DNA of 54,600 bases. It comes from a virus. The notes below the pieces were generated by a model. The model did not search any database, was not told where the DNA came from, and saw only the letters and a program-made list of their open reading frames with translations. Made by a program: the position numbers and the translations under genes. The first letter of the stretch is position 1; each line of letters starts with the position of its first letter. The DNA lies in IMG/VR virus record IMGVR_UViG_3300009008_000048, positions 1 to 54,600 of that record. One strand, written 5' to 3'. Positions 10,474 through 32,670 of this stretch are shown piece after piece.

Positions 10474-10475
10474 AT

Positions 10476-10727: not shown

Positions 10728-10731
10728 ATAT

Positions 10732-10947: not shown

Positions 10948-10962
10948 ACTTTTTTATTTAAA

Positions 10963-13691: not shown

Positions 13692-13845
13692 TTAATGCTA
13701 TTATTACTGCTAATTTACGTTTTGCGTCTTCATAGCTAATATTATGCTTTTTCGCATACGTTTTAATAGCCTTATCTCTTGGTTGAGAAGGCTCTGTTCT
13801 TATTAATTCTTCTACATCTTTTTTAACATTTCCTGTTAACGGCAT
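13678..13845 (-). CDS. Small hypothetical protein upstream of TerL (55 aa)
   Basis: An ATG at 13845 opens a 55-residue frame (MPLTGNVKKDVEELIR ... SYEDAKRKLA) ending at TGA 13678, overlapping the TerL start by 14 bases. The sequence is helical and charged, and reads as a real protein (IKTYAKKHNISYEDAKRKL is like a small helix-turn-helix). The tight overlap suggests coupled translation with TerL. Short, so confidence is moderate. Confidence 0.55.
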   Translation of the reverse strand: MPLTGNVKKDVEELIRTEPSQPRDKAIKTYAKKHNISYEDAKRKLAVIIALNVKS

Positions 13846-13860
13846 ATCTTTAATGCTTAA

Positions 13861-13955
13861 GAGGCAATATAAATCCTGGGCTTGGATTGCCTCTCGCTTA
13901 TATAATTAAATTATTAAGCCTTTATATAGCCCCGTAAGCATTAAAAAAAGGCTTA
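13861..13955 (-). other. Two hairpins between TerS and TerL
   Basis: GAGGCAA/TTGCCTC (13861-13893) with inner AATCC/GGATT pairing, and TAAGCCTTT/AAAGGCTTA (13915-13955), which overlaps the TerS stop. Neither has a good T-run on the minus strand. They may process the mRNA to separate TerS from TerL levels, or may mark a packaging site, since pac/cos sites often lie near terS. Confidence 0.45.
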
Positions 13956-14411
13956 TAATTCTTTAAGAATCTTAGCCTTTAATGCATCTTTCTCTTTACC
14001 ACTCATTTTTGTTATATCTACCTCTTGTTCCTCTATTTTAACTATTTGTTTCTCCGGTTCAAAACCACCTGTTAACTTAGCATAAGTGACAATAGCCGCA
14101 TTTATAGCAGTAGCATCATCTATATTATCTACTAAAGCACCTTGAAAATATATAGGTTTTTTAGTATTTAACAAGCTTTTAACCTTTTTCATTATCAGCT
14201 TCTTATCTATACCAGCCTTTAAACCAACCAGCTCATAGCTGCCTTGTATTTGCTGTATCTTATCTAATACACGCTGATCTTGTAATAATTTATGTGCCTC
14301 GCTAGTACATATATTGCTTTTACTTTGGTTATAAGCCTTTTTATAAGCTTTAGACCCATTAAAGCCATTAGCAACATATTCCTCGCAGAATGCTGTCATT
14401 TTATCAGTCAT
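13953..14411 (-). CDS. Terminase small subunit
   Basis: A 152-residue protein with the Terminase_2-type N-terminal DNA-binding helix-turn-helix: MTAFCEEYVANGFNGSKAY then KKAYNQS, followed by a coiled oligomerisation region and an acidic C-terminal helix (MSGKEKDALKAKILKEL). It recognises the packaging site and regulates TerL. It is the first gene of the leftward late arm, a classic position, and its start lies just downstream of a promoter-like sequence at 14430-14458. Confidence 0.87.
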   Translation of the reverse strand: MTDKMTAFCEEYVANGFNGSKAYKKAYNQSKSNICTSEAHKLLQDQRVLDKIQQIQGSYELVGLKAGIDKKLIMKKVKSLLNTKKPIYFQGALVDNIDDATAINAAIVTYAKLTGGFEPEKQIVKIEEQEVDITKMSGKEKDALKAKILKEL

Positions 14412-14429
14412 ATTTTTAACTTCAATGGT

Positions 14430-14458
14430 ATTTTACCATAGATTCAGAAAAATAGCAA
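14430..14458 (-). promoter_or_regulatory. Candidate late promoter for the terminase operon
   Basis: On the minus strand TTGCTA, a 17-bp spacer, and TAAAAT lie about 20 bases upstream of the TerS start. This gives a short leader. The -35 TTGCT core matches that of the two rightward promoters at 14739 and 15494. Confidence 0.55.
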
Positions 14459-14518
14459 GTACCCCCCCCCTTATAGATATCAGATACCCCCACCATTTCT
14501 GTGACATCCCCCCCGTCT

Positions 14519-14595
14519 AAGTTGTCATGAAGTTGTCATGAAGTTGTCATGAAGTTGTCATGAAGTTGTCATGAAGTTGTCATGAAGTTGTCATG
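14519..14595. repeat. Seven tandem copies of an 11-bp unit
   Basis: AAGTTGTCATG is repeated seven times without a mismatch (77 bp). An 11-bp period places each copy on nearly the same DNA face. This is the layout of iterons or of a cooperative repressor/activator array. It lies between divergent promoters, about 60 bp upstream of the leftward -35. Confidence 0.95.
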
Positions 14596-14738
14596 GGTGT
14601 GGGTGTGTTGTGGTATATAGTATATATATAATAGGGTAGGAATAAGTTTGTGAATTGTGTTTTTGTATCCCCAGGAGACTATCCTTTATTTTTTATATTA
14701 TTATTTTATTACTATATTATATGGCTTGTAGTTTCAGG

Positions 14739-14767
14739 TTGCTTTTATTTTTTATATATGCTATAAT
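14739..14767 (+). promoter_or_regulatory. Rightward promoter P1 (TTGCTT-17-TATAAT)
   Basis: TTGCTT and TATAAT are separated by exactly 17 bp, and preceded by GTTTCAGG. The same arrangement, with GTTTTAGG and an ATATATG before the -10, recurs at 15494. It drives the 69-aa gene after a leader of about 210 bases. Confidence 0.7.
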
Positions 14768-14987
14768 GTATATGTAAGTTAATACAACCTAGCACATTAA
14801 AAAACATATGTAAAAGTTATATATAATAACCATAATAAGTAAGTAATATTAAAAGCTGGGGCTGTTATGGTGTAAATTAAAAATTCTGTAATATTCTGGC
14901 TGGTTGTGTGCTAAGCAACACATTAAAAGGTTTATTTAATTAGTAATTACTACTTAATAAAAGTAGTAAAAGAAAGGGGACATTAAT

Positions 14988-15197
14988 ATGTCAGAATACA
15001 CAGATGCACAAATGTTAGCAGCGGGCAAAAAAGCCCTGGAAGCTAAGGATAGGCAAATTGCCTACGATAAAGTTTACAATTTAGGTAAACGCATCGAGTT
15101 AGCAACCTTACGAGAACATTATGTGCAAGCTGGCGGGTCTTTGGCACAATTAGTAAAGGACTCAAAAGCGGAAGCTATTAAGCAACTAGGCGAATAG
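14988..15197 (+). CDS. Small helical protein, paralogue A (69 aa)
   Basis: A 69-residue helical protein starting MSEYTDAQMLAAGKKALEA, with a purine-rich Shine-Dalgarno (AAAGGGG) before the ATG, one of the clearer ones here. It is a paralogue of the 87-aa protein at 15673, sharing MSEYT, a KALE/KTLE helix and an AYDKVYN / VYDRLYN motif. As the first rightward gene with its own promoter it is probably expressed immediately after infection. It may be a regulator or host-takeover factor; no known family is recognised. Confidence 0.75.
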   Translation: MSEYTDAQMLAAGKKALEAKDRQIAYDKVYNLGKRIELATLREHYVQAGGSLAQLVKDSKAEAIKQLGE

Positions 15198-15200
15198 CTT

Positions 15201-15254
15201 TAGGTGCTGGGCAACACGTTAAACTGCCCAAAGGGTAGTTATGGGCTGCCCTTT
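15201..15254 (+). terminator. 54-bp structured repeat copy 1, with terminator hairpin
   Basis: Starts four bases after the paralogue A stop. It folds into two hairpins: TGGGCA/TGCCCA, then AAAGGGTAG/CTGCCCTTT (15230-15254), the latter followed by TTAATAATT. An exact copy lies 89 bp downstream. The second hairpin acts like a Rho-independent terminator. The GGGCA and TGCCC segments could also pair in alternative ways. Confidence 0.7.
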
Positions 15255-15289
15255 TTAATAATTAACAGTAATTATATGTAAGATTTTTA

Positions 15290-15343
15290 TAGGTGCTGGG
15301 CAACACGTTAAACTGCCCAAAGGGTAGTTATGGGCTGCCCTTT
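15290..15343 (+). repeat. 54-bp structured repeat copy 2
   Basis: An exact second copy of 15201-15254, offset 89 bp. Here the terminator-like stem is followed by GCGTC, not a T-run. No gene lies between the copies. The GTGCT..GCAACAC..TTAAA core is also found at 14908-14927. Confidence 0.9.
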
Positions 15344-15493
15344 GCGTCTTTGGTAGGGGTTAGTAAGGGCAACTAGGCTTTGTGACTTACGTTGGGATGG
15401 GGATAAGATGAGAGCGGAGAGCAAACGCGAGCACGAACCAATTCTAACTTCCAACTATGCTGATATCTCAGAGATTTATTTGGGGGTTTTAGG

Positions 15494-15522
15494 TTGCTTA
15501 AATTATAAATATATGTTATAAT
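15494..15522 (+). promoter_or_regulatory. Rightward promoter P2 (TTGCTT-17-TATAAT)
   Basis: TTGCTT, 17 bp, TATAAT, preceded by GTTTTAGG. The spacer ends ATATATGT, almost as at 14739. It serves the paralogue B gene after a 140-base leader containing a doubled CATCGTTCATT. The shared extended motif argues that both are true promoters. Confidence 0.7.
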
Positions 15523-15672
15523 TATATTGTAAATGCTAAAATAGTCTTAATTATCATTAACATCGTTCATTCATCGTTCATTCACAACATTCATATATGC
15601 AAGTCATATATATTTAATCATTAATTTCTGTCTATTATAATAGTAGATAGAAAAGGGAAAGGGACATGATAT

Positions 15673-15936
15673 ATGTCAGAATACACTAATGAGCAACTAA
15701 TAGAATTGGGTCGTAAAACACTCGAAACTAGAGAAGCTCAAAAAGTCTATGATAGACTGTATAATGCTCGTATTAAATGGGTAAATCAACAACTGATTGA
15801 TTCTTACAACGAGCTAGCAGATCAGTCATACAATCAACTAGTTCTAGCAAGCAAAGAAATGTCACTGTCAGAGTTGGTTCAAGTAGACCACGAGTGTCGT
15901 GGTTTATCTGCTACTTCTACGGAACTACATGTTTAA
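15673..15936 (+). CDS. Small helical protein, paralogue B (87 aa)
   Basis: An 87-residue protein starting MSEYTNEQLIELGRKTLET, homologous to paralogue A in its first 35 residues (VYDRLYNARIKWV) and then diverging into a longer tail ending GLSATSTELHV. A GGGAAAGGGACAT ribosome site precedes the ATG. The gene has its own promoter, an AT-rich leader, and a strong terminator, so it is a monocistronic unit. Early regulator or host-takeover role is inferred only from position. Confidence 0.75.
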   Translation: MSEYTNEQLIELGRKTLETREAQKVYDRLYNARIKWVNQQLIDSYNELADQSYNQLVLASKEMSLSELVQVDHECRGLSATSTELHV

Positions 15937-15958
15937 TGTTGTTAGAGGCATAGACACT

Positions 15959-15990
15959 AAAAGAGGGAGCTTTAATCAGCTTCTTCTTTT
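15959..15990 (+). terminator. Rho-independent terminator after paralogue B
   Basis: A 13-bp stem (AAAAGAGGGAGCT with AGCTTCTTCTTTT, two G-U pairs) with a 6-base loop, ending in TTTTGTTGTTT. It lies 23 bases after the stop codon. Confidence 0.75.
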
Positions 15991-16475
15991 GTTGTTTAAC
16001 ATATGAATAGATCTAAGGGGGGTATGAGGTATGTTTTATATACAATCAGAGGTATCAGAGTATACCTGAGGTATCAGAGTATACCTTCAGAGTATACCAG
16101 GAGACAGAGTAATAAAGACTGTTCGTGGTCATAGCGCCAATTCAGTCACTATTTATTATTCTATACCATACAGCCTCAAATCCTCTTTATATAGCCGAGA
16201 AAATACTATGTCGAGGAGCTAATCATAAAATCATATAATAGCTATCACATATGATCTAGGTTATCTATTCAGTATAGAAGCTTGTCCTATACAACTGACG
16301 GAGGGGTTTATACCTCTCTGTTGGTTGTTATCTAAAAAGTTCTCTATATAGCCGAGAAATATCAGGTGATTCAAACATATGAAAAAGTAAGAAAAGTTCT
16401 TATATTATAATGTTTTTATTCATCTCAGCATATTTCCAAGTTATGGTGAGATTCTAATTATTAACAACCAGACCT
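15991..16475 (+). other. Gene-free region with repeats and hairpins
   Basis: No open frame of note. It contains the 19-bp tandem repeat at 16049-16098, two copies of TATAGCCGAGAAAT/A near 16190 and 16348, a hairpin CAAC..GAGG/CCTC..GTTG around 16289-16327, and an isolated TATAAT at 16406 that may serve the gene at 16476 but lacks a good -35. It is probably a regulatory leader or encodes a small RNA; no tRNA was recognised. Confidence 0.5.
16049..16098. repeat. 19-bp tandem repeat with inverted GGTAT/ATACC arms
   Basis: GAGGTATCAGAGTATACCT occurs twice in perfect tandem (16049-16067, 16068-16086), followed by a partial third TCAGAGTATACC. Each unit has GGTAT/ATACC dyad symmetry, as in an operator for a dimeric regulator. 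Confidence 0.85.
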
Positions 16476-16721
16476 ATGCCTAAGAAAAACATTCTGAATA
16501 TAGTTCAGATGCAACAACTAGAAACTTTACGATATGTCCAAAAAGAGATCTATTGTAAGCAAGAAAATAGACTAATAGTCTTAAAGAAAATTAATCCAAC
16601 TTTAGAAGAAATTGGTCGTCTTTATGGTGAACCAGAAACACAAACAGATAGAGACTTCGACAAATTTCTGAACCCATCAAAGTATGGGCTAATGTCATGG
16701 AAAGAAAGATGGGGATTATGA
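16476..16721 (+). CDS. Hypothetical protein (81 aa)
   Basis: An 81-residue protein (MPKKNILNIVQMQQLETLR) with a helical N-terminal half and a NPTLEEIGRLYG segment that resembles a short helix-turn-helix. The end is rich in aromatic residues (MSWKERWGL). It overlaps the next gene by ATGA, so three short genes from here to 17133 form an operon. No family recognised. Confidence 0.6.
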   Translation: MPKKNILNIVQMQQLETLRYVQKEIYCKQENRLIVLKKINPTLEEIGRLYGEPETQTDRDFDKFLNPSKYGLMSWKERWGL

Positions 16722-16903
16722 ATTATGATGAAGAAATAATTCGTCATTATGATAAACAAACAGATGTGACTATAGAAGAGGAATACGGTCCTGCTGACCA
16801 ATGTCCTCAATGTAAGGAGACGTCTTATCAACCTGTAATGCTAGAAGGAAGTAATACAGGTGAATGGATATGTAATAAATGTAATTATCAAGATGTAATA
16901 TGA
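16718..16903 (+). CDS. Small zinc-ribbon protein (61 aa)
   Basis: Starts at the ATG of an ATGA overlap with the previous stop (an upstream in-frame ATG at 16697 is less likely). It has two cysteine pairs, CPQCKE and CNKCNYQ, about 30 residues apart, forming a zinc ribbon. It ends in an ATGA overlap with the next gene. Zinc-ribbon proteins of this size in phages often bind nucleic acids or protein partners; no more specific role is visible. Confidence 0.65.
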   Translation: MNYDEEIIRHYDKQTDVTIEEEYGPADQCPQCKETSYQPVMLEGSNTGEWICNKCNYQDVI

Positions 16904-17133
16904 AAAAAGCAAAGAAAGACAATTTAGAGCATATATTGAGTGCTCTATATAAAATTAAGAAGATAAATAGAAAGAAACAATATACAGAACAAGAGCTAAT
17001 AGAACTAGTAAGTAATGATCCGGCAGGTCAGAATGTTATAAAGCAATTACAAGAGATGAAGGTTAGTAGTTCTCAGTTATTTAACAGAGGATACTATTTA
17101 GCTTCTACTATATTAGAGGGATTTATAGACTAA
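16900..17133 (+). CDS. Hypothetical helical protein (77 aa)
   Basis: A 77-residue Lys-rich helical protein starting MKKAKKDNLEHILSAL, coupled to the zinc-ribbon gene by ATGA. The segment YTEQELIELVSNDPAGQNVI could be a small winged-helix or SAM-like fold. It is the last gene before the structured leader of the ubiquitin-like cassette. Confidence 0.6.
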   Translation: MKKAKKDNLEHILSALYKIKKINRKKQYTEQELIELVSNDPAGQNVIKQLQEMKVSSSQLFNRGYYLASTILEGFID

Positions 17134-17283
17134 GTCTCTTTATACAGCCGACTTTACGCCACCAAAGTCACAATCTGCCCGAAGGTTAGCCAATTCCATT
17201 GGTTTCTTTTGGATAGCTTGTCATAGCTATGACTTAATAATTAAGTGATATCTTATGGTATCACAAGGAAAGGTTTTTTCAAT
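17134..17283 (+). promoter_or_regulatory. Structured leader upstream of the Ubl gene
   Basis: In 150 bases there are five dyads: GACTTT/AAAGTC (17150-17169), CCAAT/ATTGG (17190-17202), TCATAGCTATGA (17221-17232), CTTAATAATTAAG (17233-17245) and GTGATA/TATCAC (17245-17264). They are followed by an AAGGAAAGG ribosome site before the ATG at 17284. It looks like a regulated 5' leader or an operator cluster; I could match no known riboswitch class. Confidence 0.55.
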
Positions 17284-17625
17284 ATGAGAAAAACAACAAC
17301 AGAGACTACAGATACTATTTCTGTAGAAGTGGGTCGTTTTAACGAACCAACAAGAGGCATCGACATTGCTGAAGGTGCTACTATTCAAGAAGTAATAAAA
17401 GTATTAGACATTACATTGTCTGATACTGAAACTTTATGGGTAGACGGAGAAAAGGCTGAAGCTAATGATATCGTTGAAAATAACGATAGAATTCAAATCG
17501 TTGGTAAAAAAGAAGGTGGTAATTATGAAGACATTACACCAGAAGTAGAAGTGCCAACAGAAGAAGTTAAAGACGAGGAAGAAACTCCTGCTTTAACCGA
17601 TGAAGATGCTCCAGTTCAAGAATAA
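17284..17625 (+). CDS. Ubiquitin-like (ThiS/MoaD-type) precursor protein
   Basis: A 113-residue protein from the ATG with a good ribosome site (GTG at 17245 is in frame but has none). Residues 10-79 follow a beta-grasp pattern: strands TISVEVGRFN, DIAEGATIQEVIKVLDI helix, ETLWVDGEKAEANDIVENND and RIQIVGKKEGG. The GG at 78-79 corresponds to the mature C-terminus of ThiS/ubiquitin-like modifiers. A 34-residue acidic tail (to PVQE) follows, so a protease must remove it before activation. The JAMM protease, E1-like and E2-like genes follow directly. The nearest known cassettes are PRTRC and BIL-type operons. Confidence 0.8.
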   Translation: MRKTTTETTDTISVEVGRFNEPTRGIDIAEGATIQEVIKVLDITLSDTETLWVDGEKAEANDIVENNDRIQIVGKKEGGNYEDITPEVEVPTEEVKDEEETPALTDEDAPVQE

Positions 17626-17634
17626 ACAAATTAT

Positions 17635-17666
17635 AGAGGGTTAAGGAGACTTAGCCCTCTTTTTTT
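17635..17666 (+). terminator. Terminator between Ubl and E2-like genes
   Basis: An AGAGGG/CCCTCT stem extended by TTAA/TTAG pairing, followed by seven Ts. It lies 10 bases after the Ubl stop. Read-through would feed the downstream enzymes, so it likely makes the modifier more abundant than its enzymes. Confidence 0.8.
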
Positions 17667-17688
17667 GTTGATTATTAAATCAAATAAT

Positions 17689-18810
17689 ATGATAAAAGTA
17701 GAAAAGAAAAAAGAAAAAAAAGAAAAAAAGGAGAAAAAGGTCGAAAAATTAGAAACTATTTACTACGGAGATGAAATAGTTACTACAGATAAATGTATCT
17801 TAGGAGAAGGTAAAAAAGGAATAGTAAGAGTAAAAAAGTTAGACTTCTTTGGTATAGAATTTAAGGATATAGTCTTAGATAAGGAGTTACCAAAGAATGA
17901 GCAGCTTCATAATATCAGTAGTGTATTACAGAAAAATGAAGGGTATATGTTATCTAGAGACGAATTTAAGGTAATCAATAGAAAAGAATATGATGATAAG
18001 ACTAAAGAGAGATTAGTTAATATTCTCAAAGAACAAGGGTTTAATGATTTTCATGAACTACCAAAGACCATAGCATCTATCAAAGATAGTATAGGGTATG
18101 CTACTTCTAGAATACATGAAATGACACAAGATGTGAGAAGAACAAATAAAGATAAAGACCTAAATATATTAAAACTAAAAGAATTAGAAAGTAAAACTTT
18201 AGAATTTGATTATTCACAAGCAGAAAATGTTTTTAATAAGATATCTGGTAATAAGAAAGTTCATAAGTTTTCTATTACTGATAACTATTTAGTTATAACG
18301 ACCAAAAATCTTACATACAGCCAGAATGTTTCAGAGCTACCAGACTTTGATTTAGGTAGATTTAAGATATTTATACCTATTAACGATCCTAATAAAAGTA
18401 TAAAAGCAGTTAATATATCCAGACATCTAAGCAAAGGATACTATGGACATCCTTGTTTAGAAAACTCATTAAATATTTGTATGGGTCTTGATGTATCTGA
18501 CGTTGTTCATAATTATAAAAATAGCGGAGACTATTACGGACTTGTTTTAGTTTTAATAAACTTCTTTGAACAACCAGACTATGGAGAGCCTTATAGAAAA
18601 GACTATGAGTTTTATTGTGCTCAAGATATTGACATACATGATGAAATAAAAGATGAAGAAGACTGGTTAAGTAGAGATATATTGGCTAAATCTTCTTGGG
18701 ACGAAGAACAATTCTTAAAGGATTTAACTAACATTAAAGAACAAATTGATGTAGATATAGACAGATGCGGGAACTGTGATAACTACATAGACGAATGTTC
18801 ATGCGAATAA
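17689..18810 (+). CDS. E2-like (ubiquitin-conjugating-type) protein with C-terminal zinc motif
   Basis: A 373-residue protein from the ATG at 17689. The N-terminus is a Lys/Glu stretch. Residues about 200-305 resemble the prokaryotic E2/PRTRC-B fold: FKIFIPINDPNKSIKAV, then HPCLENSLNICMGLD with Cys256 and Cys264, then a helix (YYGLVLVLINFF). In bacterial E2s an HPH..CLG-type motif carries the catalytic cysteine; here HPC and ICMG fit, with Cys264 the better candidate. The C-terminus has CGNC..CSC, a possible zinc knuckle. Position between Ubl and JAMM/E1 genes supports an E2 role. Sequence similarity is low, so this is the least certain of the four enzymes. Confidence 0.7.
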   Translation: MIKVEKKKEKKEKKEKKVEKLETIYYGDEIVTTDKCILGEGKKGIVRVKKLDFFGIEFKDIVLDKELPKNEQLHNISSVLQKNEGYMLSRDEFKVINRKEYDDKTKERLVNILKEQGFNDFHELPKTIASIKDSIGYATSRIHEMTQDVRRTNKDKDLNILKLKELESKTLEFDYSQAENVFNKISGNKKVHKFSITDNYLVITTKNLTYSQNVSELPDFDLGRFKIFIPINDPNKSIKAVNISRHLSKGYYGHPCLENSLNICMGLDVSDVVHNYKNSGDYYGLVLVLINFFEQPDYGEPYRKDYEFYCAQDIDIHDEIKDEEDWLSRDILAKSSWDEEQFLKDLTNIKEQIDVDIDRCGNCDNYIDECSCE

Positions 18811-18820
18811 TAAAAAAATT

Positions 18821-19654
18821 ATGGATTTAATTATTACAAAAGAAGCATATCTTAAGCTCAAGTATTATATTGGGCTTGTAGATACTGAAATTTCTGGTAT
18901 GGGTAAAAGCCATATCGACAAGGACGGAGATATAATACTGTCAGACGTTATTATATTTCATCAAGAAGTCTCTGGGTCTAGCACGGATTTAGATGAAGCA
19001 TCAATGGCTAAGTTTTTATCTGAGCTAATGAAAAAGGGGGAAAAGACAGAGGAATGGAATGTTTGGTGGCACAGTCATGCAGACATGGATGTATTTTGGT
19101 CTTCTACAGATGATGATACAATAGCAGAACATTGTAATCACCAGAGTCATCTAATAAGTTTAGTTGGAAATAGAAAAGGCAAGTTCAAAGCTCGTTTAGA
19201 TTTATTTCCTAAAGATACTTCACCTTTTAATTACCAAGAAATACATTACAAGGAAGATGTAGATGTAAAAATAGAGGAAGACGATAGTAATACAGATGCT
19301 ATAGACAAGTTAGAAGACGCTATAGAGAAGGCATATCAAAAAATAGATAAGTATAAAGGTAAGAGCGATCCTGCTATACAAAAGGCTTGTCAAAAGGAAA
19401 TAGACGACAAGGTAACGGAGTATGTTGTCCCCAACAAAGTCACTAACAAATGGTCATGGACTGGTGATAATCAAGATGCTATAACTTATGACAATCAAGA
19501 TTGGAATGGTAGTCATTATAAAAATTATTACGATGATTATTATGGTGGCTATGAAATATGTATTGATTGTGGATATACACTAGAACAATGTGCTAAAAAC
19601 AAACAATGTCCTACATCAGAAGAAAATGATTCATTATTAAAATTAAACATATGA
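18821..19654 (+). CDS. JAMM/JAB metalloprotease (deubiquitinase-like)
   Basis: A 277-residue protein with an intact JAMM motif: Glu23 in DTEISGMG, then H84-S-H86, seven residues, S94-x2-D97 (HSHADMDVFWSSTD). These bind zinc and activate water in the JAB/MPN+ family. The C-terminal part is acidic and ends with a cysteine cluster (CIDCGYTLEQCAKNKQC) that may bind zinc. The gene lies between the E2-like and E1-like genes and overlaps the latter by ATGA. Likely roles are maturing the Ubl precursor at its GG and/or removing it from targets. Confidence 0.88.
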   Translation: MDLIITKEAYLKLKYYIGLVDTEISGMGKSHIDKDGDIILSDVIIFHQEVSGSSTDLDEASMAKFLSELMKKGEKTEEWNVWWHSHADMDVFWSSTDDDTIAEHCNHQSHLISLVGNRKGKFKARLDLFPKDTSPFNYQEIHYKEDVDVKIEEDDSNTDAIDKLEDAIEKAYQKIDKYKGKSDPAIQKACQKEIDDKVTEYVVPNKVTNKWSWTGDNQDAITYDNQDWNGSHYKNYYDDYYGGYEICIDCGYTLEQCAKNKQCPTSEENDSLLKLNI

Positions 19655-20280
19655 CAAATGAAAGACACAAGAGGTCATTAGATATAATTGACCCAGACAA
19701 ATTAGACTTTCCAATTCATATATTGGGAGTAGGAGGCATAGGAAGCTGGACTGCCCTAATCTTAGCCAAGATGGGAGCTTTAGATATTACTGTATATGAC
19801 GATGACGTAGTAGAAGACCATAATGTAGCTTCTCAATTTTACAAAGAAAGCCAATTAGGAGAAGAAAAGACAAAGGCTTTGGCTGATAATGTTTCAGAAC
19901 AGACAGGTGTTAAAATATTACCTATGCCTATATCAGGAGAAAGAAATATAAAAAAAGGTATAGTTATTATTGCTATAGATTCTATGGAAAGACGTCATAA
20001 AATAGCTGATAAATTAGAATATAGTATAAATTGGATAATAGATGGTCGTATGGGAGGCACACAATTTGAGATATATAGTCAACAAACAGAACTATATAAA
20101 GAAACTTTAGTAAATCCAGATGATGTTCATCCAGATGCCTGCACAGCGAAAGCTATAAGTTTCAATTGTTCTGTTATAGCAGGTATGATAGCTAATTATA
20201 TTAGATTATATGCTGATGGTAATAGAGATAAACACGCTATCACCTTTGGCTTTAACGATGTTGAATTATTAAAAGAATAA
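19651..20280 (+). CDS. ThiF/E1-like adenylyltransferase
   Basis: A 209-residue minimal E1-like protein: the nucleotide-binding motif GVGGIGSW (residues 26-32), YDDDVVEDHNVASQF with the conserved Asp and Asn, a K in GEEKTKAL, AIDSMERR, the DGRMGG turn, and a DACTAK motif whose Cys164 may accept the Ubl. It lacks the extra domains of eukaryotic E1s, as is usual for PRTRC and BIL-type ThiF proteins. It would adenylate the Gly-Gly end of the Ubl. It is translationally coupled to the JAMM gene. Confidence 0.88.
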   Translation: MTNERHKRSLDIIDPDKLDFPIHILGVGGIGSWTALILAKMGALDITVYDDDVVEDHNVASQFYKESQLGEEKTKALADNVSEQTGVKILPMPISGERNIKKGIVIIAIDSMERRHKIADKLEYSINWIIDGRMGGTQFEIYSQQTELYKETLVNPDDVHPDACTAKAISFNCSVIAGMIANYIRLYADGNRDKHAITFGFNDVELLKE

Positions 20281-21439: not shown

Positions 21440-21694
21440 ATGTCAAATGAAGCAAGATGCCCAGAGTGCAATGATGTTATAGAACATCTTAATTATAGTG
21501 CAGATGTAAGAGAATGGGGAACGTGTAGTTTATATGGTGACGATTTTAATTATAGTGATGCTGACACAGGAGATACTTATTACCAATGTCCTGAATGTGA
21601 GAAAGATATAAACCCAGATGATATACAGTATGAAGAAATAGAACCACCTCCACCACCTACTGCTAAAACATTAAATCAAGAGATGAACCGTTAA
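21440..21694 (+). CDS. Small acidic zinc protein (84 aa)
   Basis: An 84-residue acidic protein with CPECND near the start and CPECEKDIN near the middle, probably one zinc ribbon split by an acidic loop. It ends in a poly-Pro stretch (PPPPPTAKTL). It starts one base after the previous stop and is the last gene before the minus-strand 119-aa frame, whose end overlaps it by four bases. Confidence 0.65.
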   Translation: MSNEARCPECNDVIEHLNYSADVREWGTCSLYGDDFNYSDADTGDTYYQCPECEKDINPDDIQYEEIEPPPPPTAKTLNQEMNR

Positions 21695-22050
21695 AGATCA
21701 GATATAGAAGGTAGGTATTCAAATTTCTTTTTAATATGTTTTATCTTAGGAAACTTATATCCTTTATAGCATATAGTGGCTTCAGTTTTACCATCAAGGT
21801 GTTTAGAATCCATTTTTCTTCCATTTTGTAAGAACATTATACCTTTTTTGTATTTGACACCACATACATTTATTTCGTTCTTTTTATATTTTTTAGTTGG
21901 TTCATCGTTACATATTTCTAGTCTATCTAATATAGTTTGAATTAAAATACACCTATCTTTTACAGTAGATTTAAATGTCTTAATCTTAATATTCTTATAT
22001 TTGTTCCTATTAGTTTGAGATGATTGTTCTAAGTTCTTAAATATTCCCAT
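21691..22050 (-). CDS. Hypothetical protein on the opposite strand (119 aa)
   Basis: A 119-residue basic protein (MGIFKNLEQSSQTNRNK) with a CGVKYKKGIMFLQNGRKM core and KTEATICYKGYKFPKIK. The frame is not a low-complexity shadow, as no plus-strand gene underlies it. Convergent, it overlaps the 84-aa gene by four bases. It is the only leftward gene inside the rightward arm, so it may be a late insertion or a separately controlled regulator. No family recognised. Confidence 0.55.
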   Translation of the reverse strand: MGIFKNLEQSSQTNRNKYKNIKIKTFKSTVKDRCILIQTILDRLEICNDEPTKKYKKNEINVCGVKYKKGIMFLQNGRKMDSKHLDGKTEATICYKGYKFPKIKHIKKKFEYLPSISDL

Positions 22051-22499
22051 ATAACTTTATTACTGATATAATGTTTTTTAGTCGCTACGACGACCTTTAC
22101 CTTTTTAATACCCTGTAAGTATAGAACTGTATTAGAACTATAACAAGTAAGAGTATTAAAGATATTGTTTATATTATTCGTGCGTAGAATTTTATAAACT
22201 TTGATATATTAATTGATTAAGCTCTGCAGTATCCACATACCATTACTTAACCTGTGATATTACGATACATATTAGATGGGGCAGGTGACAGGTCGTCGGC
22301 CATTTTCCTACCCTTTCGCATATATACCTTAATATCTGCTTGGTGCTCTCAATTGCCCAGAGAACGTTTGTCAAAGATAACCATTAAAGAGTTAGACGTC
22401 TGTTATTGTTTATTACACTTTACCTGATCGATAGTGGCTCCTATAATTTGGAGTGTTTTACTTCCTATCCCCAACTGAAGGTTCTTAATATATATTTGT
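22051..22499. other. Gene-free region, about 450 bases
   Basis: No frame over about 25 codons reads as a convincing protein; a 24-codon minus-strand frame (about 22249-22323, start MRKGRKMADD) is too short to call. Base composition is less AT-rich than the flanks, with GC-richer patches near 22280-22310 and 22440-22480, so another structured RNA is possible. No tRNA clover-leaf was recognised. Confidence 0.45.
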
Positions 22500-22530
22500 A
22501 AAAAAAGATAACCCGAATTAACGAGTTATC
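22500..22530 (-). terminator. Rho-independent terminator of the minus-strand small RNA
   Basis: On the minus strand a 9-bp stem GATAACTCG/CGGGTTATC (one G-U pair) with a TTAATT loop is followed by seven Ts. Confidence 0.8.
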
Positions 22531-22610
22531 CTTTCATGAAATATAACAATACCACAATCCACTAACTTTGCAGTGAATGAATTATTGAATTGTGGGTTAA
22601 CATATTTCAT
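22500..22610 (-). ncRNA. Candidate small structured RNA (about 110 nt)
   Basis: A consensus promoter (22645-22617) should start transcription near 22610, exactly at the first base of a long imperfect hairpin. The outer stem is ATGAAATAT/ATATTTCAT, then an internal loop, then CCACAAT/ATTGTGG, then an inner CACT/AGTG hairpin. A Rho-independent terminator follows. No start codon with a usable frame lies inside. The long rod with internal bulges recalls 6S-type RNAs in shape, but that function is only a guess. It faces against the surrounding early genes. Confidence 0.72.
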
Positions 22611-22616
22611 GATTTA

Positions 22617-22645
22617 ATTATATATTATTTTTTAATTGTTGTCAA
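22617..22645 (-). promoter_or_regulatory. Perfect sigma-70 consensus promoter (TTGACA-17-TATAAT)
   Basis: On the minus strand TTGACA (22645-22640), a 17-bp spacer and TATAAT (22622-22617) match the consensus at all 12 positions. The predicted start at 22610 coincides with the small RNA hairpin. Confidence 0.85.
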
Positions 22646-22718: not shown

Positions 22719-22848
22719 TTTGTTAGTCGTGCGAGTAGTATATACTACTTTTAGAAAAAAAGCAAGTTTTTTTTAAGAGCAAGTTTGTTAGTCGTGCGAG
22801 TAGTATATACTACTTTTAGAAAAAAAGCAAGTTTTTTTTGAGAGCAAG
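22719..22848. repeat. Two tandem copies of a 65-bp unit
   Basis: Units 22719-22783 and 22784-22848 differ at one base. Each has a perfect 16-bp palindrome AGTAGTATATACTACT, an A7 run and a T8 run. It lies between the small RNA and the promoter of the 22992 operon. It could be an operator pair, a replication element or bent DNA. Confidence 0.9.
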
Positions 22849-22953: not shown

Positions 22954-22982
22954 TTGACTTTTTCTTAAATATAATATATAAT
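22954..22982 (+). promoter_or_regulatory. Promoter of the replication/recombination operon (TTGACT-17-TATAAT)
   Basis: TTGACT, 17 bp, TATAAT: 11 of 12 consensus positions with ideal spacing. The expected start is near 22989, only about three bases before the ATG at 22992, so the message would be nearly leaderless. Confidence 0.8.
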
Positions 22983-22991: not shown

Positions 22992-23423
22992 ATGGAATTA
23001 AGAGGCAAAAAATTATTCAATAAAATAGGTAATAGAAAGTATTTATTCTGGGCATATAAAAATGCTAAGCATAAACATCAGAAAATAATATTACTATTTG
23101 CTATTATGAAAAGGTATGAGTTTGCCAATTATGATCAGTTATCATTTTTCTTTAATAGGTATTTAAGAGCAGCTAAAAGGTTAGAGCCATTTCCTATGTC
23201 TAAGATAAAAGCAACTATAGAACATTTAATAACAGATGACAATATAAACTTTAAGATAGGTGTAGAAACAATAGAGAAGTATATTATGGACATAGAAGTA
23301 CCTAAAGATGAAGTTATATTAACATTAGACAATGGAGAGCGTATTACAAATGTAAAAAGATTACAAGAATTAGAAAAATTAAATAAAATATATTATGAAA
23401 ATGGAAAATGGTATGAGTATTAA
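22992..23423 (+). CDS. Hypothetical protein, first gene of operon (143 aa)
   Basis: A 143-residue basic protein (MELRGKKLFNKIGNRKYLFW) with a helical N-terminal half resembling a replication-initiator or DnaD-like helix bundle in composition, and a C-terminal acidic/beta part (VILTLDNGERITNVKRL). No diagnostic motif. It is the first gene after a strong promoter and is predicted to be translated from a nearly leaderless message. It overlaps the next gene. Confidence 0.65.
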   Translation: MELRGKKLFNKIGNRKYLFWAYKNAKHKHQKIILLFAIMKRYEFANYDQLSFFFNRYLRAAKRLEPFPMSKIKATIEHLITDDNINFKIGVETIEKYIMDIEVPKDEVILTLDNGERITNVKRLQELEKLNKIYYENGKWYEY

Positions 23424-23808
23424 AAACATTTTAGACAATATAGTAGGTGACAATAAAAAGATTGCTAACTTTATTAAATGGTCAAAGAAATGGTATGAAA
23501 AAAAGGTCGAACAGGGCTGGGAAGAAACAGAATTTGGTTTACTTAGCCCAGAAGAGATAAAAGATAGTGGTATGGTAAAGCAACAAGATGGTTCTTATGC
23601 TATTCCAATACAAGAACGTATAGCAGAATCTAAAAGTGGTGGTCATCGTAAAGGTGAAAAATACATTACTATAGATGATAAGTTTATGAGATGGAATAGA
23701 AAAAGAAATAATAATGTTACTAATGAAGATCATATACATAATGAAACTCAAAAACAAATAAGGGATGATGATTTACCAGAAGTAAACATCGATGATATCC
23801 CATTTTAA
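23413..23808 (+). CDS. Hypothetical protein with SSB-like C-terminal tip (131 aa)
   Basis: Several in-frame ATGs exist (23395, 23401, 23413); the last overlaps the preceding stop and is preferred. The protein is basic through the middle (SKSGGHRKGEKY, DDKFMRWNRKR) and ends DLPEVNIDDIPF. An acidic stretch ending in Ile-Pro-Phe is the signature of bacterial SSB C-terminal tips, which recruit repair and replication proteins. The basic body suggests DNA binding. The next gene has the same ending. Confidence 0.7.
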   Translation: MSIKNILDNIVGDNKKIANFIKWSKKWYEKKVEQGWEETEFGLLSPEEIKDSGMVKQQDGSYAIPIQERIAESKSGGHRKGEKYITIDDKFMRWNRKRNNNVTNEDHIHNETQKQIRDDDLPEVNIDDIPF

Positions 23809-23827
23809 TAATTAAAACAACAAACAA

Positions 23828-24658
23828 ATGACAGAACAAAAAAACGAACTTATGGACCTAGAAACAATTAAAATGGCTAAGGCTATGGCTGGGTCAGGTG
23901 GTGATAAGGTGTCTATACCTTTCATACCTGTTATAAGAATTAACAATAAGTCAGAAGAAAAAGAAGTAGAAATAGACGGAGAAAAGAAATTAGTGGAAGT
24001 TCCTGCTAAAAAAGGCTTCTTATTAAAAACTAAAGATGATAACGGTGATTATAAAGAAGAGTATTGGCAAGAAGATTTAAGTGGTGTAATACTTAAAGAA
24101 CGTTACGAGATACAATCTAAGTATGGCACAGAAGACTTTTATTATTCTTATGAGTTTGATACTTGGGTAGAACCTATTAAAGTTTATGACAAAAACAAAC
24201 AAGTTTTAATAGAAGGTTCTTATTCAGATCTTAAAAACCATTTTAGTATAGAAGAGTTAGATAGTAGAGGTAATAAAAAGAAAAGCTTTGAATTATTTTT
24301 GGTATTATATCTTAATGTAGATGGTGAAGTTAAAAGGTATAGAGCTAAAATGAATCAAAATAATAAGTGGTTTGATTATAAAAATGAGTTTGGTACTGAT
24401 GATACTTATGTAGCCTACAAAACTAACTTTGAACTAGAACAAAAGAAAGCAGGAGATAATAAGTTTTGGGTTGCTAACTATGTTAAAGGAGAGAAAGTTA
24501 ATATAAAAGAACAAATAGATTTACAAAAGGAAATGTTATCTTATATGGGAGCATTAAAAGATACTTTTAATCAAGGAGAAAGTAAAGAGACAGGTGTGCA
24601 ACAAGAGGTAGAAGTATTAGATGCAGAAGATATTAACATAGAAGATATTCCATTTTAA
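23828..24658 (+). CDS. Putative single-stranded DNA-binding protein with SSB-like tip (276 aa)
   Basis: A 276-residue protein with a predicted beta-rich body (YYSYEFDTWVEPIKVYD, FELFLVLYLNVDGEVKRYRAKM) and an acidic C-terminal tail ending DAEDINIEDIPF. This layout (OB-like core, flexible acidic tail, IPF tip) matches phage SSBs. It lies among nuclease and resolvase genes, as usual for SSB/recombination modules. The core fold is inferred by pattern only; a recombination mediator with a borrowed tip is an alternative. Confidence 0.65.
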   Translation: MTEQKNELMDLETIKMAKAMAGSGGDKVSIPFIPVIRINNKSEEKEVEIDGEKKLVEVPAKKGFLLKTKDDNGDYKEEYWQEDLSGVILKERYEIQSKYGTEDFYYSYEFDTWVEPIKVYDKNKQVLIEGSYSDLKNHFSIEELDSRGNKKKSFELFLVLYLNVDGEVKRYRAKMNQNNKWFDYKNEFGTDDTYVAYKTNFELEQKKAGDNKFWVANYVKGEKVNIKEQIDLQKEMLSYMGALKDTFNQGESKETGVQQEVEVLDAEDINIEDIPF

Positions 24659-24668
24659 ATAAAAACCT

Positions 24669-24989
24669 ATGAAAGCAAAATTAAGAATACCTACTAAGAC
24701 TCAATATGCCTTTATAGAGGTAGAAGTAGATGGTAATGCTAAGGAAATTGTAGCAGCTTACCAAGAGCTATCTCAAGAATATTGGGGAGAAATAGTAGAG
24801 AAAAAGAAAAAGGTCGCCACCAAAGTCACTAATGGTTTGGTAAAGAAAATTGAATGTATCCACACTGTTACAGACTTAGAAGCATTAGATAGTGAAATTA
24901 AAGCTATTAAAGATAGTGCAGAACAAAAAGAAATCATTAAGTTGTATAATGACAAGAAAATTAAATTAATCGACAAAGAAAATGTTTAG
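24669..24989 (+). CDS. Hypothetical protein (106 aa)
   Basis: A 106-residue protein: N-terminal KLRIPTKTQYAFIEVEVDG strands, AKEIVAAYQELS helix, then a charged helix (LEALDSEIKAIKDSAEQKEIIKLYNDKK). The first half resembles a small domain common in phage recombination operons next to RecB-like nucleases. It overlaps the next gene by eight bases. Function unknown. Confidence 0.65.
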   Translation: MKAKLRIPTKTQYAFIEVEVDGNAKEIVAAYQELSQEYWGEIVEKKKKVATKVTNGLVKKIECIHTVTDLEALDSEIKAIKDSAEQKEIIKLYNDKKIKLIDKENV

Positions 24990-25227
24990 TTCAGATGAAG
25001 ATATAAAAAAATTACCAAAAGAAACTCAAAAGGTAATGAAAAAGGTATTAAAAAGGCGTGATGAGTTAGAGACTAAATCTAATTTAATATGGGCTCTAGT
25101 TGCAATAGCAGAGTCTATGGATATTTTTTTATCTGAAAAAGATAATAGAACAACAGGAGAACAAATAGAATTTCTTTTAGGCACATTAATATCTTTAGAA
25201 CGTAAAGGATTTATAAAAATAAAATGA
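24982..25227 (+). CDS. Hypothetical helical protein (81 aa)
   Basis: An 81-residue all-helical protein (KKLPKETQKVMKKVLKRRD, LIWALVAIAESMDIFL). It overlaps both neighbours by a few bases, so the three genes are translated together. It may be a nuclease partner; nothing in the sequence fixes a role. Confidence 0.6.
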   Translation: MFSSDEDIKKLPKETQKVMKKVLKRRDELETKSNLIWALVAIAESMDIFLSEKDNRTTGEQIEFLLGTLISLERKGFIKIK

Positions 25228-25949
25228 TAAAACGAATAAGCGCATCATCGATAAAGTTATACGAAGAATGTCCATACTGTTGGAAGCTGAGGTACATATA
25301 CAGGCTATTACAGCCCCCTGTCAAGGCTTTCCTTATAGGAACGGCTTTCCATAGGGGTTGTGAGCTTTACCACCTTAAAACGCCCGAGAAGGCTATATGG
25401 CAAGAGCTAAAAAGGGACTATTTAGATGGCTCAGATGGTAGTGAAGAAAGGTTTGAAATGATAGAGAAGTTGGTTAGCTTTTATTTAAAAAATCCTTTAG
25501 ATATTAAAACATTACATCCAGAAAAGATGTTTAGTATCAAAATAAAGGGTGTGCCTGTTCCTTTGTTCGGTTTTATAGATGGAGTAGTAGAAGGTGGTAT
25601 AAAAGAATACAAGACCACAAGTACAGATTATAAGCAAGAGGATATAGATAATATACAGACAAAGATATACAGCTATGCTTATTATAAGTTATATGGAGAA
25701 ATACCTCTAGTAACTTACTACATTATAAACAAGAAAAAGGTTCATCAAAAGAAGTATAAACCACAGATTTTAACAATTAAAAAGGATGAAACTGTAATAC
25801 AAGAAGTAGAACAAATGGTCAAGGAATTTTACACCAAGATTAAAAGTAACGACTTTAGTCCTGGAAGTGGATTTCATTGGGCATCTGTTCCTGGATATTG
25901 TCCTACAGGTTTTATTCCTGGAAAGAAAAAAGAAAATGTTGACAAATAA
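25224..25949 (+). CDS. RecB/Cas4-like PD-(D/E)XK exonuclease
   Basis: A 241-residue nuclease with all PDDEXK/RecB motifs: SASSIKLYEECPYCWKLRY, GTAFHRG (His43), FGFIDG (Asp119), IKEYKTT (Glu128, Lys130) and the QTKIYSYAYY motif. Cysteines (Cys16, Cys19 and CPTG near the end) could hold an iron-sulfur cluster as in Cas4/AddB, but only three are visible. It probably trims DNA ends for phage recombination, working with the SSB-like proteins and resolvases of the operon. Confidence 0.85.
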   Translation: MIKRISASSIKLYEECPYCWKLRYIYRLLQPPVKAFLIGTAFHRGCELYHLKTPEKAIWQELKRDYLDGSDGSEERFEMIEKLVSFYLKNPLDIKTLHPEKMFSIKIKGVPVPLFGFIDGVVEGGIKEYKTTSTDYKQEDIDNIQTKIYSYAYYKLYGEIPLVTYYIINKKKVHQKKYKPQILTIKKDETVIQEVEQMVKEFYTKIKSNDFSPGSGFHWASVPGYCPTGFIPGKKKENVDK

Positions 25950-26151
25950 CTTACCAACAGATGTAAAAACATTTATAGATGTTTTAGGGGGATTATCAGA
26001 AAGGGATAGAGACTTATTAATTAACAGGTTTTTTAAAGGCATGTCAATGAAAGAAGTAGCAAAACAAATAGGCGTAACTGACAGTAGAGTAAAACAATTA
26101 GAAGACAAGCTAATAAGAGAAATAGAATTGTCCTTTGAATTACACCTTTAA
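25936..26151 (+). CDS. Sigma-70 region 4-like helix-turn-helix protein (71 aa)
   Basis: The ATG at 25936 lies inside the end of the nuclease gene; an in-frame start at 25867 would give an extra segment that reads as a frame shadow. The body matches sigma region 4: LSERDRDLLINRFFKGMSMKEVAKQIGVTDSRVKQLEDKLIREI. No region 2 is present, so it cannot be a full sigma factor. It may bind -35 elements or RNA polymerase to switch phage transcription. The phage -35 variant TTGCTT is a possible target. Confidence 0.78.
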   Translation: MLTNNLPTDVKTFIDVLGGLSERDRDLLINRFFKGMSMKEVAKQIGVTDSRVKQLEDKLIREIELSFELHL

Positions 26152-29030: not shown

Positions 29031-29405
29031 ATGAGATTAAAAGTACAACATTTCTTTGATGCTAGTCATCAGTTACCAGACTCAGATGATTTAGTAACAA
29101 AGGCCTGTGCAACGATGCACGGCCACACTTACAAAGTTGTCGTGGACATAGAAGGAGAGAATAACAGGGGCGGAATGGTTGTAGATTTCAAAGCTGTTAA
29201 ACAAATAATAGATATATTTGACCATCAACACATTAATAAAGTATTAGATGAAAATCACTTTAAAGGTGAGGCTACTGCAGAAAATATGGCAATATTTCTA
29301 TTTAATAAAATAAAGGTCGATCTAAAATTAAACGTAAAAGGTGTTGCTGTATGTGAGGGCTATAAAGGAGAAGACAAAGCTTCGTGGGCAATTTATAATG
29401 GATAA
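29031..29405 (+). CDS. queD: QueD, 6-carboxytetrahydropterin synthase
   Basis: A 124-residue protein of the PTPS/QueD family. Zinc ligands are His13 (DASHQL), His30 and His32 in ATMHGH; catalytic Cys26 lies in KACATMHGH, the CxxxHGH motif that marks QueD. Also present are GMVVDFKAVK, FDHQHINKV and an EGYKGE end. It converts dihydroneopterin triphosphate to 6-carboxytetrahydropterin, the second step to preQ0. QueE, QueC, GTP cyclohydrolase I and QueF follow within five kilobases. Confidence 0.92.
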   Translation: MRLKVQHFFDASHQLPDSDDLVTKACATMHGHTYKVVVDIEGENNRGGMVVDFKAVKQIIDIFDHQHINKVLDENHFKGEATAENMAIFLFNKIKVDLKLNVKGVAVCEGYKGEDKASWAIYNG

Positions 29406-29688
29406 TATGAAACATTTATTAAGTGCGGGTGATTATTATATTTTTTCTGGTAAATTTCAGTATACCGTTAAGAAGTTTGAAAACTTTTTAGACAATGGTG
29501 AAAGAGAGTATAGTGATCCAACATATCATACAACATTAATATCTGCACTAGAAGAATTAAACGAACGAATTAAAAAAGATAAGTTTACTAAATGTAAAGA
29601 TATTAAAGACATTATAACTCAACAAAAAGCAATAAACAAACAATTTTTAAAAGATATGAAAAAATATGAGAATAGCAAAAATGCCTAA
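29398..29688 (+). CDS. Hypothetical protein between queD and queE (96 aa)
   Basis: Starts within the queD stop region (ATG at 29398 or 29407). It has KHLLSAGDYYIFSGKFQYTVKKFENF and a helical, basic C-terminus (KAINKQFLKDMKK). It overlaps queE by 23 bases. No pathway enzyme matches; it may be an accessory or an unrelated small insert. Confidence 0.6.
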   Translation: MDNMKHLLSAGDYYIFSGKFQYTVKKFENFLDNGEREYSDPTYHTTLISALEELNERIKKDKFTKCKDIKDIITQQKAINKQFLKDMKKYENSKNA

Positions 29689-30397
29689 CGGCGAACCCGA
29701 GATATATGTTGCTGTACAAGGAGAAGGTAAGACAATAGGTGTACCATCTGTATTTGTAAGGTTATCGGGATGCAACTTACACTGTAAATGGTGTGACACA
29801 GCATATACTTGGAACTTTGAAAACACTCCATGGAAACATGATATAGAGGATAAACATAAAATAGATGAAATGCAATATGAAATAAGTGTTAAAAAGGTAG
29901 TAAAGAAAATTAAAGAAATAGCTCCACCTAATAAAAATGTAGTTTTCACAGGTGGTGAACCATTATTACAACAAGTAGAATTGTGGCAAGTAATGAAAGA
30001 ATTTAGTAACGATTGGACATTTGAAATAGAAACTAATGGCACTATAGAGTTTAACAAACAATTACTTCATAATGTGCTTGTTAATTGTAGTCCTAAGTTA
30101 GCTAATTCAGGTAATGATATAAACAAGCGATTAAACTATGATGTGTTGAACGCCATTAAAGTCGCTAATAGTATATTCAAATTTGTAATAGATGGTGAAG
30201 AGAGTTTAGCAGAAGTAGAAAAAATAGTTGAACAATTACAAATACCAAGAAACAAAATTTATTTAATGCCAGAAGGTATTGAAACAAATGATATTATAAA
30301 TGGAACTAGAGCACTATCTATTATATGTGCAGAACGAGGGTGGAATTTAAGTACTCGTCTACAAGTGATATTATATAATACAAAAAGAGCAGTTTAA
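29666..30397 (+). CDS. queE: QueE, 7-carboxy-7-deazaguanine synthase (radical SAM)
   Basis: A 243-residue radical-SAM enzyme. The cluster motif is SGCNLHCKWCDTAYTW (Cys36, Cys40, Cys43; the CxxxCxxC form of QueE). Substrate motifs VAVQGEGKTIG and VFTGGEPLLQ and ETNGTIE are also present. It converts 6-carboxytetrahydropterin to CDG. The start overlaps the previous gene; a short A-rich leader precedes the ATG. Confidence 0.93.
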   Translation: MRIAKMPNGEPEIYVAVQGEGKTIGVPSVFVRLSGCNLHCKWCDTAYTWNFENTPWKHDIEDKHKIDEMQYEISVKKVVKKIKEIAPPNKNVVFTGGEPLLQQVELWQVMKEFSNDWTFEIETNGTIEFNKQLLHNVLVNCSPKLANSGNDINKRLNYDVLNAIKVANSIFKFVIDGEESLAEVEKIVEQLQIPRNKIYLMPEGIETNDIINGTRALSIICAERGWNLSTRLQVILYNTKRAV

Positions 30398-30417
30398 TCA
30401 ATTAACATAAAAAAATT

Positions 30418-30654
30418 ATGCCTCCAGTAAAAGGAAAAAAGAACCCTAATATGGCTCGTAAAGGTAAAGATAACGGGCGATGGAAGGGCGGTAAGTCTTC
30501 AGATTATAGACGTAGAATTACCAACGCTAAAAAAGGTGAAGTGGTACACCATAAAGACCACAACAAAGCTAATAATACTAAATCTAATTTAAAGAAATTA
30601 TCTTCTATAGGTGCTCATAATAAAGCACATCCAGAGAAAGGAGGAAGACACTAA
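30418..30654 (+). CDS. Small HNH homing endonuclease-like protein (78 aa)
   Basis: Residues 36-70 (NAKKGEVVHHKDHNKANNTK then SNLKKL..HNKAH) match the HNH core of phage homing endonucleases (HH..DHN..N). The N-terminal half has NGRWKGGKSSDY, a DNA-binding linker common to this family. It sits between queE and queC, splitting the pathway genes, and probably inserted itself there. Confidence 0.8.
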   Translation: MPPVKGKKNPNMARKGKDNGRWKGGKSSDYRRRITNAKKGEVVHHKDHNKANNTKSNLKKLSSIGAHNKAHPEKGGRH

Positions 30655-30888
30655 ATGATTAAAGCAAAAGAACAATGGGTAGATGTTGAAATGGTAGATA
30701 TATGTTTTGATAACAACGAACAAAATATGGCTTTAATTAAATTCGATGATTTATTAGATCTTAATATGTACTTAGAACATGCTCAGAATGTAAAAAAAGT
30801 AAAGCTATTAACAGAGGGTAACCTATGGAAACTTAAAACAGTTTACTATGTGTTAGTGGACTATAAGGAGGAATACCAAAATGAGTAA
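30655..30888 (+). CDS. Hypothetical protein upstream of queC (77 aa)
   Basis: A 77-residue alpha/beta protein (KEQWVDVEMVDICFDNNEQN, DDLLDLNMYLEHAQNV). It starts one base after the HNH stop and overlaps queC by eight bases. No recognised family. Confidence 0.55.
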   Translation: MIKAKEQWVDVEMVDICFDNNEQNMALIKFDDLLDLNMYLEHAQNVKKVKLLTEGNLWKLKTVYYVLVDYKEEYQNE

Positions 30889-31591: not shown

Positions 31592-31597
31592 ACTAAT

Positions 31598-31655: not shown

Positions 31656-31666
31656 AATAATGTAGT

Positions 31667-32082: not shown

Positions 32083-32102
32083 GATAATTAACAATAAAAA
32101 AA

Positions 32103-32669: not shown

Positions 32670-32670
32670 T

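Follow-up and report, generated by a model that had tools for sequence, protein, structure and literature searches.

The window, that is, the whole 54,600-nt stretch of viral DNA that was analyzed, harbors a candidate small-RNA gene. On one side lies an early/replication-type operon that is read in the opposite direction; on the other lies a single ORF that is read in the same direction as the RNA. The features of this locus, with the means by which each was identified, are as follows:

22500–22610, minus strand: predicted small RNA of ~111 nt (sequence, minimum free energy (MFE), strand bias)
22617–22645, minus strand: σ70 promoter, TTGACA-17-TATAAT, 12/12 consensus positions (sequence match, Markov expectation)
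22536–22610, minus strand: 5′ bulged hairpin of 75 nt with a 12-nt apical loop (predicted fold)
22500–22534, minus strand: intrinsic terminator with a 13-bp stem (22534–22503), a 6-nt loop, and a run of seven T residues (T7; 22506–22500) (sequence, fold)
22518–22610, minus strand: 30-codon ORF with its ATG at +1, judged to be non-coding (codon score)
21691–22050, minus strand: ORF of unknown function, the sole nearby gene in the direction of the RNA (ORF list; codon score 0.28)
22719–22848, no strand assigned: two tandem repeats of 65 bp (98%), both containing a perfect 16-bp palindrome, AGTAGTATATACTACT, located between the divergent promoters (repeat search)
22954–22982, plus strand: divergent promoter of the early/replication-type operon, TTGACT-17-TATAAT (promoter search)
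22992–25949, plus strand: operon behind the divergent promoter, comprising ORFs of unknown function and a phage exonuclease, PHROG 69 (annotation)

Genetic surroundings of the unit

The divergent promoter is situated 308 bp from that of the RNA and faces the other way; the -10 regions of the two share 21 of 24 positions, constituting an inverted repeat (I1). The operon was called replication-type because it contains the exonuclease and because two of its ORFs end in an acidic DIPF tail, which we take to be reminiscent of single-strand binding proteins (SSBs). The first-pass annotation of this DNA had held that the unit opposes the flanking early genes. This is true of the operon on the right (22992 onward) and of the genes at 17.2–21.7 kb, but the nearest gene on the left (21691–22050) shares the strand of the RNA. 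No ORF of at least 40 aa overlaps 22500–22610; antisense action on an overlapping gene was rejected, as there is no such ORF opposite the RNA. The intergenic stretch 22051–22502 contains no further unit of this kind (z = -2.8 on the minus strand; z = 0.03 on the plus strand of 22100–22460).

Other neighboring genes, at 17245–20280, are reminiscent of a cassette for ubiquitin-like conjugation. Their matches are to a ubiquitin-like β-grasp protein (Ub-Mut7C) and a JAB-like protease, both below the cut-off, and to a ThiF/E1 enzyme, which exceeds it by a wide margin. The related loci L054 and L055 contain, in unchanged order, genes like those at 17665, 18821, and 19651. To the right of the operon, the ORF at 25930–26151 encodes a 73-aa protein that comprises little beyond σ70 region 4 (Pfam E = 7e-12). 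The ORF at 26761–27411 matches region 4 as well, though weakly; it is possible that both are phage transcription regulators.

Elsewhere in the window, a phage-encoded GroEL-type chaperonin (Pfam Cpn60) occupies 8905–10473; it has a relative in L057, and a similar 519-aa ORF is found in L042. The region 14411–17245 is repeat-rich, with seven perfect 11-bp repeats at 14519–14595, a structured element of ~50 nt that occurs twice (at about 15202 and 15293), and several very stable plus-strand folds. The translations of two ORFs (10963–12990 and 32671–34122) include inserted stretches that start with Cys and end with HN before Cys; by this motif, both ORFs appear to bear inteins. From their translations, the genes at 29031–35138 resemble those of a 7-deazaguanine (preQ0) pathway together with a TGT-like base-modifying enzyme, and a similar TGT-like stretch appears to be embedded in the 2449-aa protein encoded at 35836–43185. 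Among 31 long genes of the window, the stop codons are TAA (25), TGA (5), and TAG (1). A 14.7-kb contig from another sample (L002) is identical to positions 1–14460 of the window; the 117 C bases at its start are probably an assembly artefact.

Promoter, fold, and coding potential

The promoter of the unit matches the σ70 consensus at all 12 positions, as had been annotated: on the minus strand, a -35 element (TTGACA, 22645–22640) is separated from a -10 element (TATAAT, 22622–22617) by a 17-nt spacer. No other site in the entire window reaches 12/12. In 200 first-order Markov copies of the window, such sites arose by chance at a mean of 0.165 per copy when spacings of 16–18 were allowed and 0.07 per copy at a spacing of 17, the latter corresponding to at least one site in 14 of the 200 copies. 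Strong σ70 promoters are a habit typical of this phage family: across the window and its related loci, 41 non-redundant sites with at least 11/12 matches were located outside of long ORFs. A terminator-like hairpin follows within 260 nt in six of these 41 instances. We regard those in the window and in L051 as good, that in L042 as doubtful, and those in L009, L026, and L038 as likely due to chance. The L042 promoter has a spacer that resembles the one in the window; the RNA downstream of it is only mildly structured (z = -2.6).

The +1 position of the predicted RNA, which we placed 7 nt past the -10 box, is 22610. This is also the first base of the 5′ hairpin (a start at 22611 would add one pair). 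The hairpin is interrupted by small internal loops only (1×1, 1×2, and 1×1 nt), and a single base separates it from the terminator stem. The extent that had been described for the unit, about 110 nt from the first base of a hairpin to a stem and T7 run, was therefore confirmed: it spans 22610–22500, or 111 nt. RNAfold yielded an MFE of -40.0 kcal/mol for this RNA, compared to -16.4 ± 2.8 for shuffled sequences (z = -8.5; none of 200 shuffles was as good). Among 728 sampled 120-nt stretches from both strands of the window, the one over the RNA unit had the lowest z-score (-7.7), the next being -6.1. No alternative antiterminator fold was predicted; without its 3′ arm, the 5′ arm of the terminator stays unpaired. 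A self-contained attenuator switch was rejected for lack of such an alternative fold.

These features raise the question of whether the arrangement has no function, a consensus promoter having arisen by chance in AT-rich sequence beside a commonplace terminator hairpin. By raw energy, three of 13,568 non-overlapping 111-nt windows are at least as stable as the RNA, and raw stability alone is thus not unique. Further, this phage group has many hairpin/T-run sites with z < -3.5. A scan of the window and related loci found 64, several with z-scores below that of the RNA unit, and many of them are plain terminators. The stability by itself is unexceptional; it is the combination of features that is exceptional. 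Because the only perfect promoter, a hairpin that begins at +1, a terminator, and a strand bias all coincide here, we consider a functionless arrangement very unlikely.

The strand bias is evident from the fold of the opposite strand: the MFE of the plus-strand version of the same stretch is only -23.4. Six of the 42 pairs in the fold, four of them within the 5′ hairpin, are G-U pairs, which become mismatches when read on the other strand; the fold is consequently strand-specific. This asymmetry favors an RNA over a DNA palindrome as the thing under selection.

The unit had also been described as lacking a gene, which is not wholly accurate. A 30-codon ORF does start at +1, with its stop codon falling in the terminator loop, but this ORF was judged to be non-coding. 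Its codon score is 0.07 per codon; values that low or lower were obtained for 2.2% of 403 30-codon pieces of true genes and for 49% of 568 open intergenic pieces, i.e., its codon usage resembles that of non-coding DNA. The encoded peptide had no match in Pfam, and a tblastn search of the related loci uncovered no relative (best E = 0.83). The position of the ATG, exactly at +1, nonetheless allows a leaderless micro-protein gene to be contemplated. Shine-Dalgarno-like sites precede only three of the 50 window genes of at least 100 aa (the background is 4.7% of 922 ATGs), and the first ATG of the divergent operon is likewise only ~3 nt past its predicted +1. The lack of Shine-Dalgarno sites in the phage's genes and the nearly leaderless ATG of that operon both speak for the leaderless reading; given the codon usage and the search results, however, we hold it to be extremely improbable.

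The promoter, the predicted fold, the terminator, the strand bias, and the missing coding signal were all established from the sequence. With its own promoter and terminator and without a coding signal, the unit has the hallmarks of a phage small non-coding RNA. The sequence, the structural statistics, and the strand asymmetry agree with its annotation as a candidate small RNA, and we conclude, on sequence grounds, that it is probably a real small non-coding RNA in an uncultured phage.

Relatives of the locus and known RNAs

Nucleotide-level searches returned no copy of the RNA. Searches with blastn (near and distant settings) using the surrounding 2.2 and 4.1 kb gave no matches in phages, and an exact 22-base pattern was not found in viral contigs. 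When 221 bases were compared to phages and plasmids, the blastn matches (8 and 3 records, with E = 0.005–0.06 and 0.01–0.05, respectively) covered only ~40–50 bases, from the promoter into the very start of the RNA. When 6 and 17 related records were searched at the DNA level, three weak matches appeared (E = 0.003–0.07), one of which was confined to the promoter region. An nhmmer search of the related loci with the RNA found no copy. A single-sequence covariance model, run over 69 related loci (a set that excluded loci repeating others and L066, a 0.6-kb piece) plus the window, recovered nothing but the RNA, the strand complementary to it, and a terminator that matched by chance (E = 1.1).

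The related loci were identified by means of proteins. Protein-guided scans for the neighbors at 22992, 23828, and 25224 returned no loci, while scans with the portal protein and two downstream proteins did find related loci. The portal-protein search of viral contigs gave 6 and then 41 related loci, and 2 more were present in MAG contigs. The exonuclease is encoded in five of the 17 larger related records searched, and these five, with two more contigs, furnished a handful of syntenic places; within this set, G008 appears to be a near-duplicate of G010, and the G015 sequence begins too near the gene for a judgment. In the relatives, the genes that surround those for the SSB-like protein and the exonuclease are in conserved order, with identities of 31–42% for the two proteins. 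Because the relatives are so distant, the missing RNA copy neither confirms nor refutes conservation.

Two relatives have promoter-hairpin-T7 units of their own. One, in the L051/L052 pair, is upstream of the same SSB-like gene; in L051 it spans 1065–1150 (z = -3.0). The other, in L058 (2168–2030, minus strand; z = -5.7), has a 12/12 promoter followed by a hairpin of 22 bp, including one mismatch, that ends in a T7 run; it is not included in the count of six of 41 sites above. Both stand directly before small ORFs, and they therefore look more like leaders than free small RNAs. Could the unit in the window also be a terminated leader, whose promoter serves the minus-strand gene at 21691–22050 when some factor overrides the terminator? 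In λ, the leader terminator downstream of pR′ is overridden by a factor in this way. The gene does run in the direction of the RNA, and the L051 and L058 units lend this reading some precedent. However, the gene begins 450 nt beyond the RNA's terminator, and it has its own candidate promoter (TTGTTA-17-TATACT at 22146, 9/12). Coupled with the lack of an antiterminator fold, these observations make a leader quite unlikely.

Other motifs accompany the early promoters of the relatives. In L054 (10383, before 10466) and L078 (1343 and 1382, before 1429), the equivalent early promoters are preceded by exact TTATCCACA boxes. The window has no such box. Taken together, exact TTATCCACA boxes, or elsewhere GCTAATATTAGC-type palindromes, were noted a short distance before strong early promoters in L054 (10383), L078 (1343 and 1382), L034 (343 and 354), and L037 (2599 and 2649); it is possible that they are regulatory or origin sites shared by the related phages. 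The GCTAATATTAGC motif is absent from 21.5–23.1 kb of the window, even when three mismatches are allowed. L054 also has a branched, strongly structured stretch (5285–5400; z = -5.2) after a TTGACA-18-TATACT promoter, ~140 nt before a tRNA-Met gene.

Among known RNA families, the 111-nt RNA had no Rfam match at the gathering threshold; weaker rows, with E values from 0.04 to 3.6 and none reaching that threshold, were set aside as chance matches. The first-pass annotation had likened the unit's shape to 6S-like polymerase decoys. 6S RNA has a large central bubble that mimics an open promoter. The two are alike in being highly structured, and RNA polymerase was the partner suggested for the phage RNA. 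Nevertheless, the phage RNA has no open-promoter-like bubble, it is shorter at 111 nt, and it matched no Rfam 6S model at gathering, nor even at E ≤ 5. Membership of the 6S family was thus rejected, and the reading as a 6S-like polymerase decoy is not supported.

A closer parallel in layout is the OOP RNA of λ, a 77-nt transcript located beside replication genes and pointing away from them. The window RNA, too, is a short, terminated RNA with its own promoter, pointing away from an adjacent replication-type operon in a repeat-containing region; that it diverges from a replication operon depends on the assignment of the operon by its exonuclease and presumed SSB-like tails. At ~111 nt, it is longer than OOP. 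OOP is antisense to cII, whereas no ORF of at least 40 aa lies opposite the window RNA. The OOP promoter of lambdoid phages is reported to matter for replication control, even though OOP RNA is not a primer (PMC12197685).

Three further phage RNAs were compared. In lactococcal Ceduovirus phages, the origin lies between the promoters PE1 and PE2, and PE1 gives rise to PE1-T, a non-coding early transcript at the origin, in a promoter-flanked, ORF-free, fast-diverging region beside early genes (PMC7150918). The candidate in the window is likewise a putative non-coding transcript beside early genes, next to an ORF-poor region with two promoters; however, these promoters diverge, and the RNA runs away from the repeats, outside of the interval between the promoters. 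A PhiKZ non-coding RNA (PMC8545117) is similar in length (~100 nt) and has two predicted stem-loops, the second of which is possibly a Rho-independent terminator; it is believed to arise by processing of a 3′ UTR, whereas the window RNA has its own promoter. Finally, Racr anti-CRISPR RNAs, which mimic CRISPR repeats (PMC10651486), resemble the present candidate in being small phage non-coding RNAs immediately behind a strong promoter.

Possible roles of the RNA

Does the RNA act by pairing with mRNAs? Bulged stems and strong promoters are frequent in plasmid and phage antisense RNAs, and both are present here. We examined 70 start regions of the phage's own mRNAs and found no pairing target beyond shuffled controls: 96, 47, 84, and 54 of 100 shuffles equaled the whole RNA, the loop, the 5′ arm, and the 3′ arm, respectively. 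The complement of the 12-nt apical loop is not enriched in phage mRNAs. Hence, among phage mRNAs, complementarity to mRNA starts beyond chance, as would mark a seed-pairing trans-acting small RNA, was not detected. A trans-acting RNA that uses its apical loop to pair with host mRNAs would share the bulged stem and strong promoter of those antisense RNAs; with no phage target that beats the shuffles and no enrichment of the loop complement, we deem this distinctly unlikely.

The same data bear on the main rival of our preferred reading, namely, that the RNA binds and titrates a protein of the host or the phage (an RNA-binding protein, a defence nuclease, or RNA polymerase). Nearly all of its bases are paired, no accessible seed to phage mRNAs stands out, and the strong promoter suggests abundance, all of which would suit a decoy. 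On the other hand, no known RNA family matches, the bubble of 6S RNA is missing, and any ligand is only putative. We view a protein-binding role as rather unlikely.

We favor, tentatively, the view that the early/replication control region of the phage contains a self-standing gene whose product is a short, stable hairpin RNA that does not code for protein. An early regulatory RNA of the replication region is preferred because of the layout, which is like those of OOP and the Ceduovirus phages, and because of the TTATCCACA boxes in the relatives. Beyond the promoter, the fold, and the terminator, each step of this account, from transcription through action as an RNA to the link with replication, is one that we infer. 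Host RNA polymerase with the main σ factor would initiate at 22610 and terminate at the T7 run after ~111 nt. The long bulged stem would lock the 5′ end, resulting in a stable RNA in which only the apical loop of 12 nt and the small bulges would be exposed. Like OOP, the RNA gene would be located in the control region of a replication-type operon and point away from it, and its likeliest role would be early control of replication or of the divergent operon. This control might be exerted by the RNA itself, with its loop or fold touching a protein or another RNA; alternatively, the divergent transcription might open the repeat region between the two promoters. The link of the RNA to replication, considered alone, is doubtful in our analysis. 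A link to an origin is weak because the window has no exact DnaA boxes and because the GC skew keeps its sign at 22 kb. Also counting against the account as a whole are the missing homologue, and with it any covariation, in the sequences searched, and the hairpin units of the relatives, whose place immediately ahead of ORFs is more suggestive of leaders.

A more far-reaching notion is that the RNA exemplifies a new class: a hairpin RNA with a perfect promoter and almost no seed, which would capture a protein of the host or the phage, or a defence system, soon after infection begins. The L051 and L058 units, at the early promoters of relatives, would then be functional analogues of it without homology. 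We would call this a long shot.

The RNA described here is a well-formed but isolated candidate, and its kind, the phage small non-coding RNA, is already known. Few phage non-coding RNAs have been described, however, and most come from cultured hosts; this candidate is clean and self-contained. The phage group to which it belongs is represented here solely by metagenomic contigs and two contigs from MAGs, and its genes lack Shine-Dalgarno sites. In such a group, the candidate would be a testable example of early control at the level of RNA, and it would suggest that units of this sort turn over quickly between related phages.
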